A stretch of DNA of 64,000 nt, from the NCBI RefSeq assembly GCF_018332695.1, contig NZ_BOQN01000015.1:124001-188000 (forward strand), written 5' to 3'. The position numbers and the translations under genes are program-made. The notes under the pieces are model-generated. The model did no database searches and was not told the origin of the DNA. It saw nothing but the letters and a program-made list of their open reading frames with translations. Shown piece after piece: positions 26,176 to 54,369 of the stretch. The DNA comes from Paractinoplanes toevensis (GTDB lineage Bacteria > Actinomycetota > Actinomycetes > Mycobacteriales > Micromonosporaceae). Numbering within the stretch: position 1 is the stretch's first letter; every line of letters starts with the position of its first letter.

Positions 26176-27771
26176 ATGACCCCCTTCCCCGCTCAGACCG
26201 ACGTCGTCATCATCGGCGCCGGTCACAACGGTCTCGTCTCCGCGATTCTGCTGGCCCGGGCCGGGCTCGACGTCGTCGTGCTCGAGTCGGCGAGCGTGCT
26301 GGGCGGGGCGACCCGCACCGAGCACCCATTCGCAAAGGTGCCCGGTCTCGGCCAGTCCACCGGCTCCTACCTGCTCGGGCTCATGCCGCCCGAGCTGCTG
26401 CGCACCCTCGACGTGGACATCCCGGTGCTGCGCCGCGACCCGCACTACTTCCTGCCCACCCCGGGCCCGGCCGGCTCGCCCTACCTGCTGTTCGGCCGCG
26501 ATCGCGAGGACACCCGGGCGCAGATGGCGAAGTTCTTCTCGCCGCGCGACATCGCCGCCGACGAGCAACTCGCCGTCGAGATCGCCGCGTTGCGCGCCGA
26601 CCTGGCCCCGGCCTGGCTCGAGGAACCGACCAGCGTCGAGGAGATCGCCGACCGGCACATCCGGCCGCAGCTGCAGAGCACCTTCATCGACCTGGTGCGC
26701 GGCTCGGTCGCCGATTATCTGGCCCGGTTCGGCTTCAAGAGCGAACTGCTGATGAGCATGTACGCGGTGACCGACGGCCTCTCCGGGCTCAACGCCGGCC
26801 CCGACGATCCGGGCACCGGCCACAACTTCCTGGTGCACAACATGTGCCGGCTGCCCGGCGCCGACGGCACCTGGATGATCGCCGAGGGCGGCATGGGCAC
26901 GGTGTCGCGCACGTTCGCCGACGCGGCCCGCGCGGCCGGTGCCCGGTTCTACACCGACGCCCGGGTCTCGTCGGTGACCATCGACGGCGGCGCGGCCAGC
27001 GGCGTGGTGCTGGCCGACGGCCGCTCGCTGCAGGCTCGGGTGGTGCTCGGCGCCTGTGATCCCTACCAGCTGATGAGCCTGGTCCCGGCCGGGGTGCTGC
27101 CGTCCTCGCTGACCACCCACATGGAGTCGGTGCGGCGGCCGGGCACGACGCTCAAGGTCAACCTGGCGCTGCGTGACCTGCCGCGCTTCTCCTGCCTGCC
27201 GGACGGCTCGCCGCCACCGTTCGGCTCGACCATCCACCTGCTGCCGGGTTCGGCCGAGCTGGCCGGTTCGGGCGACCGCGAGTCGCCGATGGCCGCCCTG
27301 CGGGAGATGTGGGCCGAGGTCCAGGCGGGCCGGCTGCCGGCCGAGCCGACCATCGAGTGGTACGTGCACACCACCGTCGACCCGTCCCTGCAGGATCCGG
27401 CCGGACATCACTCGTCGGCGCTGTTCGTGCAGTCGGTGCCGTACACGCTGGACGGCACGACCTGGGAGGCCGAACTGCCCGGTTACGTCTCCCGGCTCCT
27501 GGAGATCTGCGACCGCTACGCGCCCGGCACGTCCGACCTGGTCGCCGACGTCATGCCGCTCACGCCGCCGGGCATCGAGGAGCACTTCGGCATCACCGGC
27601 GGCCACATCCACCACGTCGACAACACGGTCGCCTTCAACGAGCGGATGCCGTATTTCACCGGCGTCGACGGCCTTTACGCCGGCTCGGCGGGCACCCACC
27701 CGGCCGGCAGCGTGATCGGCGCGGCCGGCCACAACGTCGCCAAGCGCATCCTCAGCGATCTGGGCAAGTAA
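26176..27771 (+). CDS. FAD-dependent phytoene-desaturase-like oxidoreductase (PYROXD2/CrtO type)
   Basis: A 531-residue flavoprotein of the phytoene desaturase/amine oxidase superfamily. The N terminus has the dinucleotide fold VVIIGAGHNGLVSAILLARA followed by Glu in VVLESASVLGG and Arg in TRTEHPF. The C terminus has the second FAD motif DGLYAGSAGTHPAGSVIGAAG. No carotenoid genes are near, so carotenoid work is not implied; the closest general description is the PYROXD2-like group of unknown substrate. No ribosome site precedes ATG 26176. A strong terminator follows. Confidence 0.9.
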   Translation: MTPFPAQTDVVIIGAGHNGLVSAILLARAGLDVVVLESASVLGGATRTEHPFAKVPGLGQSTGSYLLGLMPPELLRTLDVDIPVLRRDPHYFLPTPGPAGSPYLLFGRDREDTRAQMAKFFSPRDIAADEQLAVEIAALRADLAPAWLEEPTSVEEIADRHIRPQLQSTFIDLVRGSVADYLARFGFKSELLMSMYAVTDGLSGLNAGPDDPGTGHNFLVHNMCRLPGADGTWMIAEGGMGTVSRTFADAARAAGARFYTDARVSSVTIDGGAASGVVLADGRSLQARVVLGACDPYQLMSLVPAGVLPSSLTTHMESVRRPGTTLKVNLALRDLPRFSCLPDGSPPPFGSTIHLLPGSAELAGSGDRESPMAALREMWAEVQAGRLPAEPTIEWYVHTTVDPSLQDPAGHHSSALFVQSVPYTLDGTTWEAELPGYVSRLLEICDRYAPGTSDLVADVMPLTPPGIEEHFGITGGHIHHVDNTVAFNERMPYFTGVDGLYAGSAGTHPAGSVIGAAGHNVAKRILSDLGK

Positions 27772-27780
27772 CTACTCACC

Positions 27781-27816
27781 AAGCGGCCGTCGCCCCTCGG
27801 GGCGGCGGCCGCTTTT
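27781..27816 (+). terminator. intrinsic terminator after the flavoprotein gene
   Basis: AAGCGGCCGTCGCCCC pairs with GGGGCGGCGGCCGCTTTT; one internal T faces a G, and a T-rich run follows. It starts 9 nt after the stop at 27771. Confidence 0.9.
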
Positions 27817-27823
27817 GGTTTTG

Positions 27824-27922
27824 CCACGCACGCAGAATGAAGGGCCAGGGCCAGCTTTTGCTGGGCCCCGGCCCGGCCTCGACGGGAGTTGCGGTCTGCA
27901 CCACCCACCCAGGCACGACATC
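27824..27922 (+). repeat. 98-bp dispersed hairpin repeat, copy A
   Basis: About 99 bp that recur inverted at 53612-53709 with roughly ten mismatches. The 5' part reads CCACGCACGCAGAATGAAGG; the centre is a hairpin, GGGCCAGGGCCAGC against GCTGGGCCCCGGCCC; the 3' edge is CCAGGCACGACATC. It fills the space between the terminator of the flavoprotein gene and the stop of the convergent Rieske gene. It encodes nothing obvious and is best described as a REP-like or MITE-like intergenic element; see the finding. Confidence 0.85.
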
Positions 27923-27927
27923 TGCTT

Positions 27928-29484
27928 CTAAGGGTTTGTCTTCTCGGCCCGGATCTTGTGGCCGACGCTGGTCAGACACCGCCCACTCGGGAGGTCGAAC
28001 TTCCAGCCGTGCAGTTGGCAGGTCAGGGTGTTGCCGTCGACGATGCCGAAGCGGCTGAGGTCGGCCTTGAGGTGCGGGCAGCGGCGCTGCACGGTCCAGC
28101 CACCGAGTTGGGTGTCCTCGGCCTCGACCGCCTTCTCGTGCTCGTCATACCAGCCCTCGGCGTATTGCAGGCGCTCCTCGGAGAGGCACTTGAAGAAGGC
28201 GTAGACGAACTCGTTGTACTGCCCGATGCGGGCGGCGGAGAAGCGGCAGCTCAGGAACAGCGAGTTGACCCAGTCGCCCTCGTCGATGTGGATCAGGTGC
28301 TCGATCAGGGCGCGGCCGGTCTTGAAGCGGTAGCGGACCTTCTCGTCGGCGTAGGGGCGCACCTGCTTGCCGGGGAAGTCGACGACGATGCTCTCGACGA
28401 CCTCGCCGGTGGTGCCGAAGCTGTCGGTCAGGTCGAAGCGGACCGGGCCGCCGACGCCCTGGGCCATGTAGATCGACTCTTCGAGCAGGGGCTCGATGCG
28501 CTTCTTGAGCTCGCCCAGCACGTCGATCTCGGGGTGCCGCCAGGAGGCTTTCTCGGCCGCGATGATCGGGGCCTTCCGCTGCCGCATCTCCTCGAGGTGC
28601 TGCTTCTTGTTCGCGAAGAACTCGTCGACCGGGATCGGGTGCTCGGTCGTCGCTGCCTTTTCCGACAGATCGGTCACCGAGCCGGGGAGCAGGACGATGG
28701 CGTTCGTTCCGCCGACCTTCGCGTACTCCTCCAGGAAGACGCCCTGGTCGGGAAAGATGTTGCCCTCGTCGCCGAAGATGTCGTTGAACTTCCACAGCTC
28801 GTCGTCGAGGAAGCAGGGCGGGCCGGCGATCGGGAAGACGTGGTCGGCCTTCAGGTCGTCGATGTAGCGCCAGGTGCGGTCGAACTGGCGGTCGCGTTTC
28901 TGCTTGCCGAACGCGGTCTTGGCCGACTCGGGCAGCTCGTAGACCATCGGGTACCAGATCGCGCCGGAGAACTGCAGCATGTGCGCGTGCACGTGGCCCA
29001 GCTCGGCGAAGATCGCCAGGTCGGTGGGGCGGGCGTCGTTCTGGTTGAGCACCCGGACGCCCTCGTGCTCGACCCAGAGCGACGAGTCGCCGATCGGGCC
29101 GTCGGTCGGGCTGATCAGCGCCTGGATCATCACCTTGAGGCCGCCGTCGAGCTCGTGCACCTCGTTCGACCTCGTCTTCAGGAACTTGGTGAAGCCCAGG
29201 TCGCGCAGCTCGTCCTCGAGCTGGCTGGTCGGGTACTCCGGCAGCAGGACCGTGGCCTTCTTGCTGATGAACCGCTTCAGGTGGGCCGCGTCGAAGTGGT
29301 CCCGGTGCAGGTGGGACACGTAGAGATAGTCGACGTCGCCGAGGGTTTCCCAGTCCAGAAGCGAATTATCGGGGAATGGGAACCATGAGGCGAAATATGC
29401 GGGATTGACCCACGGGTCACACAAGATGCTGCCGGCGGACGTGTCGATCCGCATGCTGGCGTGGCCGGTGCCCGTGATCCGCAC
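27928..29484 (-). CDS. metallo-beta-lactamase fold hydrolase fused to a Rieske [2Fe-2S] domain
   Basis: A 518-residue two-domain protein. Residues 1-260 are a UlaG-like metallo-beta-lactamase fold (DYLYVSHLHRDHFDAAHL gives His-x-His-x-Asp-His). Residues about 435-518 are a Rieske domain with Cys-x-His in RRCPHLKAD and Cys-x-x-His in LTCQLHGWKFD, binding a 2Fe-2S cluster. The arrangement resembles CMP-sialic acid hydroxylase relatives, but sialic acid genes are not in view. GTG 29484 has GGAGGAGG upstream. It may be an oxygenase-type enzyme with unknown substrate; no reductase is adjacent. Confidence 0.88.
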   Translation of the reverse strand: MRITGTGHASMRIDTSAGSILCDPWVNPAYFASWFPFPDNSLLDWETLGDVDYLYVSHLHRDHFDAAHLKRFISKKATVLLPEYPTSQLEDELRDLGFTKFLKTRSNEVHELDGGLKVMIQALISPTDGPIGDSSLWVEHEGVRVLNQNDARPTDLAIFAELGHVHAHMLQFSGAIWYPMVYELPESAKTAFGKQKRDRQFDRTWRYIDDLKADHVFPIAGPPCFLDDELWKFNDIFGDEGNIFPDQGVFLEEYAKVGGTNAIVLLPGSVTDLSEKAATTEHPIPVDEFFANKKQHLEEMRQRKAPIIAAEKASWRHPEIDVLGELKKRIEPLLEESIYMAQGVGGPVRFDLTDSFGTTGEVVESIVVDFPGKQVRPYADEKVRYRFKTGRALIEHLIHIDEGDWVNSLFLSCRFSAARIGQYNEFVYAFFKCLSEERLQYAEGWYDEHEKAVEAEDTQLGGWTVQRRCPHLKADLSRFGIVDGNTLTCQLHGWKFDLPSGRCLTSVGHKIRAEKTNP

Positions 29485-43949: not shown

Positions 43950-44265
43950 TCGTTGCCCGGCCACCCGCCGAAGGACACGCCCGCGGCCGTCACGGCGCTC
44001 GGTGGCGACATCGATCGCGGTGGTGGTCATGGGCCGACTTTAGGGCGGGGGTACGACAAGAACCCGCGGCCACCGGCCAGGTGCGCGGAGGCGCACAGCC
44101 GACGAATGACCGCGCCGGTGAAAGCTCGCAACCGGCGAACTCCGACACCGGCCAGGCCCGCGCACCGACCAGAACGATCACGCCGACCAGGCCCGCGCAC
44201 CGACCAGAACGATCACGCCGGCCGGGGCCGTGCGAATGGACGAGCGGGCGGAGCGCGCGAGCGGG
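43950..44265. other. 316-nt intergenic region with a 35-bp duplication
   Basis: No gene is supported. Apart from the tandem duplication at 44152-44221, the sequence is C-rich and repeats GACC/ACCGG words. It separates gntR from the convergent lipoprotein gene; no clear terminator is seen. Confidence 0.65.
44152..44221 (+). repeat. 35-bp tandem duplication
   Basis: Two adjacent copies (44152-44186, 44187-44221) of a unit beginning CCAGGCCCGCGCACCGACCA, identical except for the last base. Near-identity suggests a recent duplication. Confidence 0.9.
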
Positions 44266-52642: not shown

Positions 52643-52900
52643 TCAGTAGGCGTCGACGATGTCGACGCGGATGCCGCGCCCACCGATCGACCCGATGACC
52701 TGTCGCAGGGCCTTGGCCGTACGCCCGCCACGCCCGATGACCGTTCCCAGGTCCTCGGGGTGCACGCGCACCTCGAGCCGCTTGCCGCGGCGCGAGTCGA
52801 CCAGCCGGACCCGGACGTCGTCCGGGTTGTCGACGATGCCCTTGACGAGGTGCTCCAGCGCCGGCCGGAGCGCCCCGTCAGTTCTTGTCGGCGCCGGCAC
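52643..52900 (-). CDS. khpA: KH-domain RNA-binding protein KhpA, start uncertain
   Basis: The family sequence is clear: [20 protein letters not shown], then the KH loop [20 protein letters not shown] and [14 protein letters not shown]. But no ATG, GTG or TTG occurs where these proteins normally begin: the reading is GCG-CTC-CGG-CCG-GCG-CTG-GAG. The nearest in-frame GTG (52900) would add about 10 residues and overlap the end of rpsP by 23 nt; a CTG start inside would shorten it. I report the GTG version (85 residues) with the caveat that a point change, a sequencing error or an unusual initiation codon could be involved. Confidence 0.8.
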
Positions 52901-53414
52901 CGGCGGGGTCCTCTGCGGTCTCGGCAACAGCCTCGCGGTTCGGCTCGGCCGGGTCGACAGCCTCGGTCTGCGCCGGCTTGGCCGCGGCGGCCTCCGGAGC
53001 AGCGGCGACCTTCTCCGTCTTCGGCTCAGTCTTGGCCGACTTCTTCGGGGTGGCGGGCTTCGTGTCGGCAACGCCGGCGGCGGCCTTCGACTCAGCCTCG
53101 TACACCTCGGTGCGGCTCTTCTTCGGCTCCGCCACGAGCAGCGGCGGCGGCGCGGGAAGACCCTTGAACTGCTGCCAGTCGCCCGTCTTCTCCAGGATGC
53201 GCTGCACGGCCTCGCTCGGCTGCGCGCCGACGGAGAGCCAGTACTGCACGCGCTCCGACTTCACCTGGATCAGCGAAGGGTTCTCCTTCGGCTGGTAAAT
53301 GCCGACGTACTCGATGGCACGGCCGTCGCGCTTGGTGCGCGAGTCGGCGATGACGATGCGGTACTGCGGGTTGCGGATCTTGCCCATCCGCAGGAGCCGG
53401 ATCTTAACGGCCAC
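52878..53414 (-). CDS. rpsP: 30S ribosomal protein S16 with long C-terminal extension
   Basis: The S16 core occupies residues 1-80 ([51 protein letters not shown]). The remaining 95 residues, rich in Ala, Glu, Lys and Pro ([20 protein letters not shown]), are an extension that makes the protein 178 residues long, about twice the minimal S16. Extended S16 tails occur in actinobacteria; this one is near the long end. It leads the rpsP-khpA-rimM-trmD group. Confidence 0.97.
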
Positions 53415-53715
53415 GGTATTTCGCTCCTGATGACTGCGTGAGGTTTTGAGGTCAGGACCCGCGTGGGGATGCGGGACCGAGCCTCGGGGATGGCAACGCG
53501 CTCAGAGTTAGAGGGCGCCTCACGCGTGCCAAGCTCGTCCATTCTGCCAGACGGCCCGCCGCGGATCCCAACCGGGCCCATTTTCAGCGATACGATCAAG
53601 ATCAAATTCTGGATGTCGTGCCTGGTTGCATGGTGCTGACCGTCGCTCCCGCCGAGGCCGGGCCGGGGCCCAGCAGAGCTGGCCCTGGCCCTTCATTCTG
53701 CGTGCGTGGTGAAGA
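53415..53715. other. rpsP upstream region, 301 nt
   Basis: No gene. The first 150 nt form the promoter side of rpsP, without a hexamer pair that I would trust. The distal third is filled by copy B of the 98-bp hairpin repeat, which abuts the stop of the DUF402 gene. Confidence 0.7.
53612..53709 (-). repeat. 98-bp dispersed hairpin repeat, copy B
   Basis: The inverted counterpart of 27824-27922. On the minus strand it reads CCACGCACGCAGAATGAAGG and ends CCAGGCACGACATC; the central stem is identical except for the loop (TCT for TTTT). It begins 7 nt after the stop of the DUF402 gene. The differences from copy A cluster in the 3' third. Confidence 0.85.
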
Positions 53716-54369
53716 TCAAAACCGAGCCTCGACCGGCCGATCCCAGCCCGCGGGCAGTTCCAGCGGGGGCGACCAGGCCGGGTCCGGCTGGAAGTCGATC
53801 CAGGTGCCGTCGAAAGGGAACTCGGCCGCCTCGATCATCTTGATCACTCGTCGGCCTTCGGCCCAGACCGCCGCCTCGTCGGGGACCCAGTAGTGCTGTG
53901 ACAAGGCCAGTCGCTCGGCGAACTCGTCCTCGTCCTTCCACTGCCAGGCCCGGTCCGGGGTGGCGACGATGTCGAGGTCCTGGTCGATCACGTCGATGCC
54001 GGCCACCTCGCCGTCGTCCCAGCGGACCGCGGACTCCTCGAGGTTGACGTAGTAGTTCTTGAAGACACCCTCGTCGGTGCGGAAGAGCCAGACCGAGTGA
54101 TCGGCGCCGGCCGGGAAGAAGCGCAGCACGCCCGGCCCCTGCCAGCTGGCGAGCCGCAACTCGTACCGCTGCGTCACCCATTCGGTGAACGGCATGTCGC
54201 GCGGGCCCCGGCCGTCCGCGGACCGCTCGATCGCGATGGTCGAGCCCCGGGCCAGCCAGACGAGCAGACCGCGCTCGTCGTCGGAGACCACCCGGGCCGG
54301 ATGCACGAAGGCGATCCGTCCCAGGTGGGTGTCCCGATGCAGAATCAGCCGGCCATGATCGAACGTCAC
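53716..54369 (-). CDS. DUF402 domain protein
   Basis: A 217-residue protein of the DUF402/FomD-like fold; some members hydrolyse nucleoside diphosphates or related phosphates with a metal. The core signature runs WLFRTDEGVFKNYYVNLEES, then DVIDQDLDIVATPDRAWQWK and DEDEFAERLALSQHYW, with the conserved Asp/Glu residues in place. The C-terminal 60 residues vary. It is 1 nt from the proS stop and is probably translated with it. Confidence 0.88.
   Translation of the reverse strand: MTFDHGRLILHRDTHLGRIAFVHPARVVSDDERGLLVWLARGSTIAIERSADGRGPRDMPFTEWVTQRYELRLASWQGPGVLRFFPAGADHSVWLFRTDEGVFKNYYVNLEESAVRWDDGEVAGIDVIDQDLDIVATPDRAWQWKDEDEFAERLALSQHYWVPDEAAVWAEGRRVIKMIEAAEFPFDGTWIDFQPDPAWSPPLELPAGWDRPVEARF

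Follow-up and report, generated by a model that had tools for sequence, protein, structure and literature searches.

The elements closest in kind to the repeat described here are small, folded and intergenic. The CIR elements of Caulobacter and Brucella are intergenic, 100–200 nt long and without terminal inverted repeats, and their transcripts have been modelled as two hairpin arms with a linker, in all of which our repeat is similar (PMC2229807). The CIR hallmark, a GANTC in a loop (PMC2229807), was by eye absent from the two copies first found, and the hosts are unrelated bacteria. Unlike CIR, the Actinoplanes repeat has a proposed pseudoknot, and its copies resemble each other genome by genome. 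ERIC or IRU (~127 bp) and YPAL (~168 bp) are likewise intergenic and strongly folded, occur in tens of copies and have an unknown mover; target duplications accompany both of them, and ERIC also carries terminal inverted repeats with TA ends (PMC2229807). Neither target duplications nor such ends were seen in the Actinoplanes repeat. REP sequences and BIMEs share with it intergenic hairpins, compensatory change, genome-specific types and inverted pairs (here in genome G059, locus L065), but differ as single hairpins of 20–40 bp, usually present in more than 100 copies and having a cognate transposase (PMC2817692, PMC3733652). The Actinoplanes repeat is thus of one kind with CIR, ERIC, YPAL and REPs, yet none of the tested lists of defining features describes it.

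Two copies in one window

The window, a stretch of 64,000 nt from the Paractinoplanes toevensis genome, holds two copies, A and B, on opposite strands (Table 1). Their full-length alignment has 89 identical columns out of 99, nine mismatches and one gap, and the two longest inverted repeats listed for the window are the two halves of this match. This bears out the preliminary description, which had pointed to a ~98-bp inverted pair with about ten mismatches, common edges and a central stem. It had also placed both copies shortly past the 3′ end of a gene, as holds for B, starting 6 nt past the stop of the gene at 53716–54369 (−), and for A, behind a terminator-like hairpin. At site A, the order is the stop of 26176–27771 (+), this hairpin, the copy, and after 5 nt the stop of 27928–29484 (−), so that A lies between convergent genes. 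B is upstream of 52878–53414 (−), read as rpsP from its translation; all gene names used here are such readings. Taken singly, the two folds are not unusually stable (z of −1.1 for A and −0.3 for B on the given strand, −2.2 and −1.5 on the other), and the case for structure is a comparative one, made across copies. Elsewhere in the window (44145–44214), a 35-nt unit occurs as a tandem pair, 94% alike.

Table 1 Features of repeat copies A and B and their borders, in window coordinates.
Feature	Position	Strand	Basis
Copy A, short-P1 class	27824..27922	+	Alignment, searches
A: conserved 5′ module (CCACGCACGCAGAATGAA)	27824..27841	+	Alignment
A: hairpin P1	27842..27874	+	Fold, alignment; covariation comes from long-stem relatives
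A: hairpin P2, GGGA loop within 27884–27888	27875..27896	+	Alignment
A: TCG, proposed pseudoknot 5′ side	27879..27881	+	Column-pair scan
A: CGA, proposed pseudoknot 3′ side	27916..27918	+	Column-pair scan
Terminator-like hairpin between upstream gene and A; neighbour, outside the repeat	27781..27814	+	Terminator scan
Copy B	53612..53709	−	Alignment, searches
B: conserved 5′ module	53692..53709	−	A/B alignment
B: hairpin P1	53660..53691	−	Fold, A/B alignment
B: hairpin P2	53638..53659	−	A/B alignment
B: TCG, proposed pseudoknot 5′ side	53653..53655	−	Column-pair scan
B: CGA, proposed pseudoknot 3′ side	53616..53618	−	Column-pair scan
TTGATCTTGATC tail directly beyond B 3′ end	53594..53605	−	Tail comparison
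TTGATCTT at B 5′ side, overlapping the stop codon of 53716–54369	53712..53719	−	Tail comparison

Family size and distribution

With either covariance model, R1 or R2, at least 13 copies were recovered from the P. toevensis genome, and a DNA search found 12 places. In four relatives chosen for their many matches, R2 recovered at least 67 (G173), 48 (G022), 47 (G005) and 25 (G048) copies; all whole-genome counts are lower bounds, with 14, 23 or 150 candidates scored per genome. Of 60 sampled genomes of the genus, 47 matched B at E ≤ 0.001. Across the family, 20 of 150 genomes, from 4 of 44 genera, matched at E ≤ 1e-5, and 13 of the 20 belong to the genus of P. toevensis. Outside it there were one or two matches per genome, and those viewed kept the long hairpin and the GNRA-looped hairpin, with a different 3′ end. 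An order-wide motif search, in a set with P. toevensis as the one genome of its genus, matched 59 of 397 genomes, P. toevensis eight times and no other genome more than twice, with 7 genomes matched by the backward control.

Copies in the genome and in sister species support the dispersed repeat family suggested earlier; this is not the lone duplication set out as its alternative, with two copies only and none in sister species. A and B are members of a dispersed, non-coding repeat family, about 95–125 nt long, whose copies occur chiefly in the Actinoplanes group. Rfam 15 had no match in the window at the gathering cut-off, and in 17 loci of relatives it gave three matches below threshold; those checked by coordinates did not fall on a copy. 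A text search of the literature, with subscription journals mostly outside its reach, returned no description recognised as this repeat. Plasmids and phages were searched as well; each set had a single weak partial match, covering 42% of the query in the one and 37% in the other at E 6e-3, and neither was counted as a member.

Two related groups were seen on the way. Three P. toevensis loci (L009, L010 and L011; C10, C103 and C100) form a sub-family that shares the 5′ half and the hairpins but ends differently at the 3′ side, in GCAGGTCCGTGCCAC..GACGAACTCGATCT. Shorter relatives of the repeat occur in genus g19 of the family (L260, L262, L263, L269 and L270), at least one or two per genome with R2, and a genus-specific model may uncover more of them.

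Anatomy of a copy

Three alignments were used: A1, with 40 mixed copies; A2, with 56 long-stem copies out of 58 candidates (L098 and L094 left out); and A3, with 106 model-aligned copies. The input of A3 was 98 chosen loci, several short or odd copies being set aside (among others L009–L012, L055, L056, L077, L078, L098, L116, L118, L126, L130, L170 and L186).

Copies are about 72–129 nt long, and most have two hairpins. In all three alignments the 5′ module ends in ..CACTCACGCAG... The P1 hairpin is variable: that of the P. toevensis class is short, and other copies have a longer one containing an inner hairpin. The P2 loop is of the GNRA type, with GGGA in 87 and GTGA in 18 of the 106 copies of A3, and one gapped. 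The conserved 3′ end reads ..CGACAT. A TTGATCTT tail (at most one mismatch) lies within the 30 nt that follow this end in 66/101 copies, compared with 10/101 for the 30 nt preceding the copy and 1/101 for shuffled 40-nt tails. The idea that a TTGATC repeat was there first, as a target, found no support: the 14-mer TTGATCTTGATCTT occurs at four places in three genomes, one directly behind a copy, two within called ORFs and one in no called ORF.

A scan of all column pairs outside P1 singled out columns 107, on the 5′ side of the P2 internal loop, and 143, within the 3′ CGACAT, which pair in 106/106 copies (G-C in 82, C-G in 24). The neighbouring pair is C-G in 105 and U-G in one, and the outer pair U-A in 73, with 33 copies unpaired. 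The C-G form is carried by 20 of the 21 G048 copies and by one copy each in G032, G033, G039 and G003; in the one G048 copy left over, G-C is found on both sides. Since copies within a genome are alike and the swap is confined to five genomes, it may represent one or two events. From this pattern of columns, the conserved 3′ segment may pair back to P2 as a pseudoknot.

Covariation and strand of the fold

In A2, 94.9% of 1331 cells were paired, against 71.0% in shuffles, and 19 of 24 pairs had two-sided changes. The two-sided cells numbered 277 for 96.2 expected, a value reached by 0/500 shuffles. Relatedness is left in by the shuffle control and removed by the slide control, in which moving the partner by 1–3 columns brought pairing to 43% or less. 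The signal of A1 was weak (6 pairs with two-sided change, 70/500 shuffles as high), because short and long stems are mixed there.

The wobble cells were distributed very unevenly between the strands. G.T cells outnumbered A.C cells 121 to 3 in A2 (58 to 1 with each genome and pair counted once) and 154 to 34 in A3. As the P1 columns of A2 had been picked on folds of the stated strand, which leans towards G.T, we added a strand-symmetric scoring, from which 4/101 copies dropped out because the search expression missed their P2; it gave 199 to 76 and, once the short-stem group was removed, 192 to 39. Both kinds of cell would be expected alike in a duplex, and the excess of G.T thus indicates that the stated strand is selected as a single strand. 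Judged on the aligned copies, base pairs are kept through compensatory change, and wobble is tolerated on one strand only. Running against this choice of strand, 82/106 copies reach a lower minimum energy, by prediction, when the opposite strand is folded.

We tentatively favour, with somewhat less than even confidence, a non-autonomous dispersed repeat that acts as a folded single strand, as RNA rather than ssDNA. The acting form would be the stated strand, recognised by a factor acting in trans. Copies would have entered gaps where harm is slight; some sites would have been filled long ago and then kept, and the copies within a genome would have been made alike by new insertion or conversion. 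Covariation and one-strand wobble fit a structured RNA, and ssDNA would look the same; the GNRA-type loop and the possible pseudoknot are what make us hold RNA likelier.

A small RNA family had been among the first candidates. It is compatible with the strand-specific covariation; no sigma-70-type promoter match was found near A or B. This result and the lower energy of the opposite strand count against the RNA reading. In addition, the 5′ neighbour points away in 23 plus 9 of 101 copies, so that read-through cannot make the RNA there.

Transposases and replication fork

The ends of IS200/IS605 elements are strand-specific hairpins with short guide pairings. By analogy, our repeat could act as folded ssDNA on the lagging-strand template, with an HUH-type enzyme mobilising it in trans as happens for IS200/IS605 or REP, and the pairing between the P2 foot and the 3′ end would then equal that between guide and cleavage site. 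We consider this explanation unlikely, though it has several results on its side. The hairpins are strand-specific by their G.T and A.C cells, as in IS200/IS605, and G173, the genome richest in copies, has four matches to Y1_Tnp (PF01797), two of them above 75 bits. Most copies also point against the replication fork, 62/96 in eight genomes (13 of 109 typed places set aside, those of G034, for which no length was available) and 35/51 in G173.

Against it, Y1_Tnp was detected in 4/15 genomes and absent from the other 11, among them copy-rich ones (G022 with 48 copies, G005 with 47, G048 with 25) and P. toevensis with 13. Two genomes with matches, G009 and G028, yielded no copy (G028 by DNA search only), and in G173 the distance to the nearest Y1_Tnp match exceeds 90 kb for all 51 copies of the fork count. 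There is no fork bias in G022 (22 to 20); elsewhere the bias may follow from gene orientation, and copies that occupy shared sites do not count as independent cases. The suggestion of a REP or BIME, in the sense of a RAYT-associated element, finds no support, in view of the same distribution of the Y1 transposase and of size, the repeat having three to five times the REP length. With the REP foot tag GTAG/CGTC in mind, a CGTC was seen by eye before P1 in many class II copies, and not in A or B.

Genomic context and shared sites

Among 101 of the 102 matches, 42 lay between two stops, 23 and 15 in the two kinds of tandem gap and 9 between two starts; 7 were inside an ORF of the simple caller, and 5 had one neighbour unseen. 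Of the 80 gaps that hold a copy, 41 were convergent, compared with 17 of the 108 other gaps in the same stretches (Fisher p 2e-7), a preference for convergent gaps. In 69/101 copies, the 3′ end looks onto the stop of a gene on the opposite strand, and in 43 of these the distance is 4–30 nt. An upstream terminator as insertion target was rejected, as one precedes 13/106 copies only.

Site A holds the repeat in 16 of 80 loci with the neighbour gene, always in one orientation; the decayed copy of L170 (E 0.0016) is among the 16, and a further weak match, on the opposite strand (E 0.024), was left uncounted. The repeat is absent from P. tereljensis (L165), whose two stops directly adjoin. At some loci of the Micromonospora group, the site-A gap carries different palindromes: one of the type AAGGAAGGGC..CTTATTAACG..AAGGGGCCCCT..TTAACA takes the place of the repeat in L199, L209, L210 and L211, and a further family, TTGATCATGA..TCATGATCAA, is found in L239–L242. 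Site B was examined in 30 of the 59 genomes with the gene, and 10 of these have it filled; in G048 it is empty, with a TTGATCTTGATCTG remnant kept.

Among the 106 copies, 14 sites are common to at least two genomes. The mean stem distance was 0.493 between copies at a shared site, 0.291 within a genome and 0.573 otherwise, and that of the 3′ part 0.229, 0.168 and 0.287, respectively; these are raw distances, with genome relatedness included. Copies were closer to others of their own genome than to their site counterparts in 36/43 cases for the stem, 31/43 for the 5′ module, 32/43 for P2 and 30/43 for the 3′ part. The last of these does not bear out overall an idea of ours, by which only the hairpin would go with the genome and the 3′ part with the site. 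Four-combination and order tests for gene conversion gave many incompatible column pairs and no order signal in 6/7 genomes, with a weak one in G022 (4 copies). Gene conversion among the copies of a genome is possible.

Orientation was opposite in 23/244 cross-genome pairs with a common neighbour gene. Most of these come from one locus, upstream of a gene read as pdxT, where G059 (L065:1695–1945) has adjacent inverted copies, one short-stem and one long-stem; there, other species keep one orientation or the other. Opposite orientations at one locus mean that repeated insertion at a site does happen.

The repeat could instead serve the host, as an RNA or 3′-end element under selection (terminator, protector of mRNA ends or antisense RNA in convergent gaps), spread by chance duplication and conversion. 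The stems that stay paired at sites common to distant species, the single orientation at site A and the position of so many 3′ ends opposite a stop would fit such a role. Nevertheless, we regard it as doubtful, given that copy numbers range from 0 to 67 among related species, that two thirds of the B sites examined are empty and that orientation flips between species. A and B also have no U-tract after P1, and the intrinsic terminator scan marked a hairpin before A and one before B, and not P1.

Means of spread

The MITE proposed at first does not agree with the 101 copies, which have neither terminal inverted repeats nor target duplications above shuffles. The longest inverted end match averaged 4.3 nt, against 4.5 nt when shuffled, and the mean longest direct match was 4.92, against 4.79 ± 0.11 with shuffled partners, copy boundaries being uncertain. 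Direct end matches of 8 nt or more occurred in 8/101 copies, mostly TTGATCTT. A composite transposon was rejected after inspection of L096, L110, L118, L127, L129 and a stretch of L271: the ORFs between neighbouring copies look ordinary by eye, with no transposase or reverse transcriptase seen. They include what we take to be glutamine synthetase, panB and sigma factors.

A pseudoknotted RNA might be copied back beside gene ends by a reverse transcriptase, as a bacterial counterpart of SINEs. The fixed 3′ end, the short-period TTGATC tail of varying length, the genome-wise likeness and the lack of terminal repeats, target duplication and transposase suggested this to us, and we offer it as a long shot. 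A double-stranded DNA element (a cruciform, a protein site or a symmetric two-way terminator) is very improbable, as the strand asymmetry of the wobble pairs is unexpected for a symmetric duplex, even with a strong GC-rich palindrome between convergent genes.

Small intergenic repeats are common in bacteria, and what moves most of them and how they are kept up remain open. The Actinoplanes repeat gives a handle on these questions, with a fold readable from compensatory changes on one strand, 0 to 67 copies per genome, and shared sites whose copies nevertheless follow the genome. Whether RNA or DNA is the acting form, what moves it and how its copies are homogenised can be tested in culturable Actinoplanes strains. 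The family would also give Actinoplanes genomes an annotation that is missing from Rfam 15.
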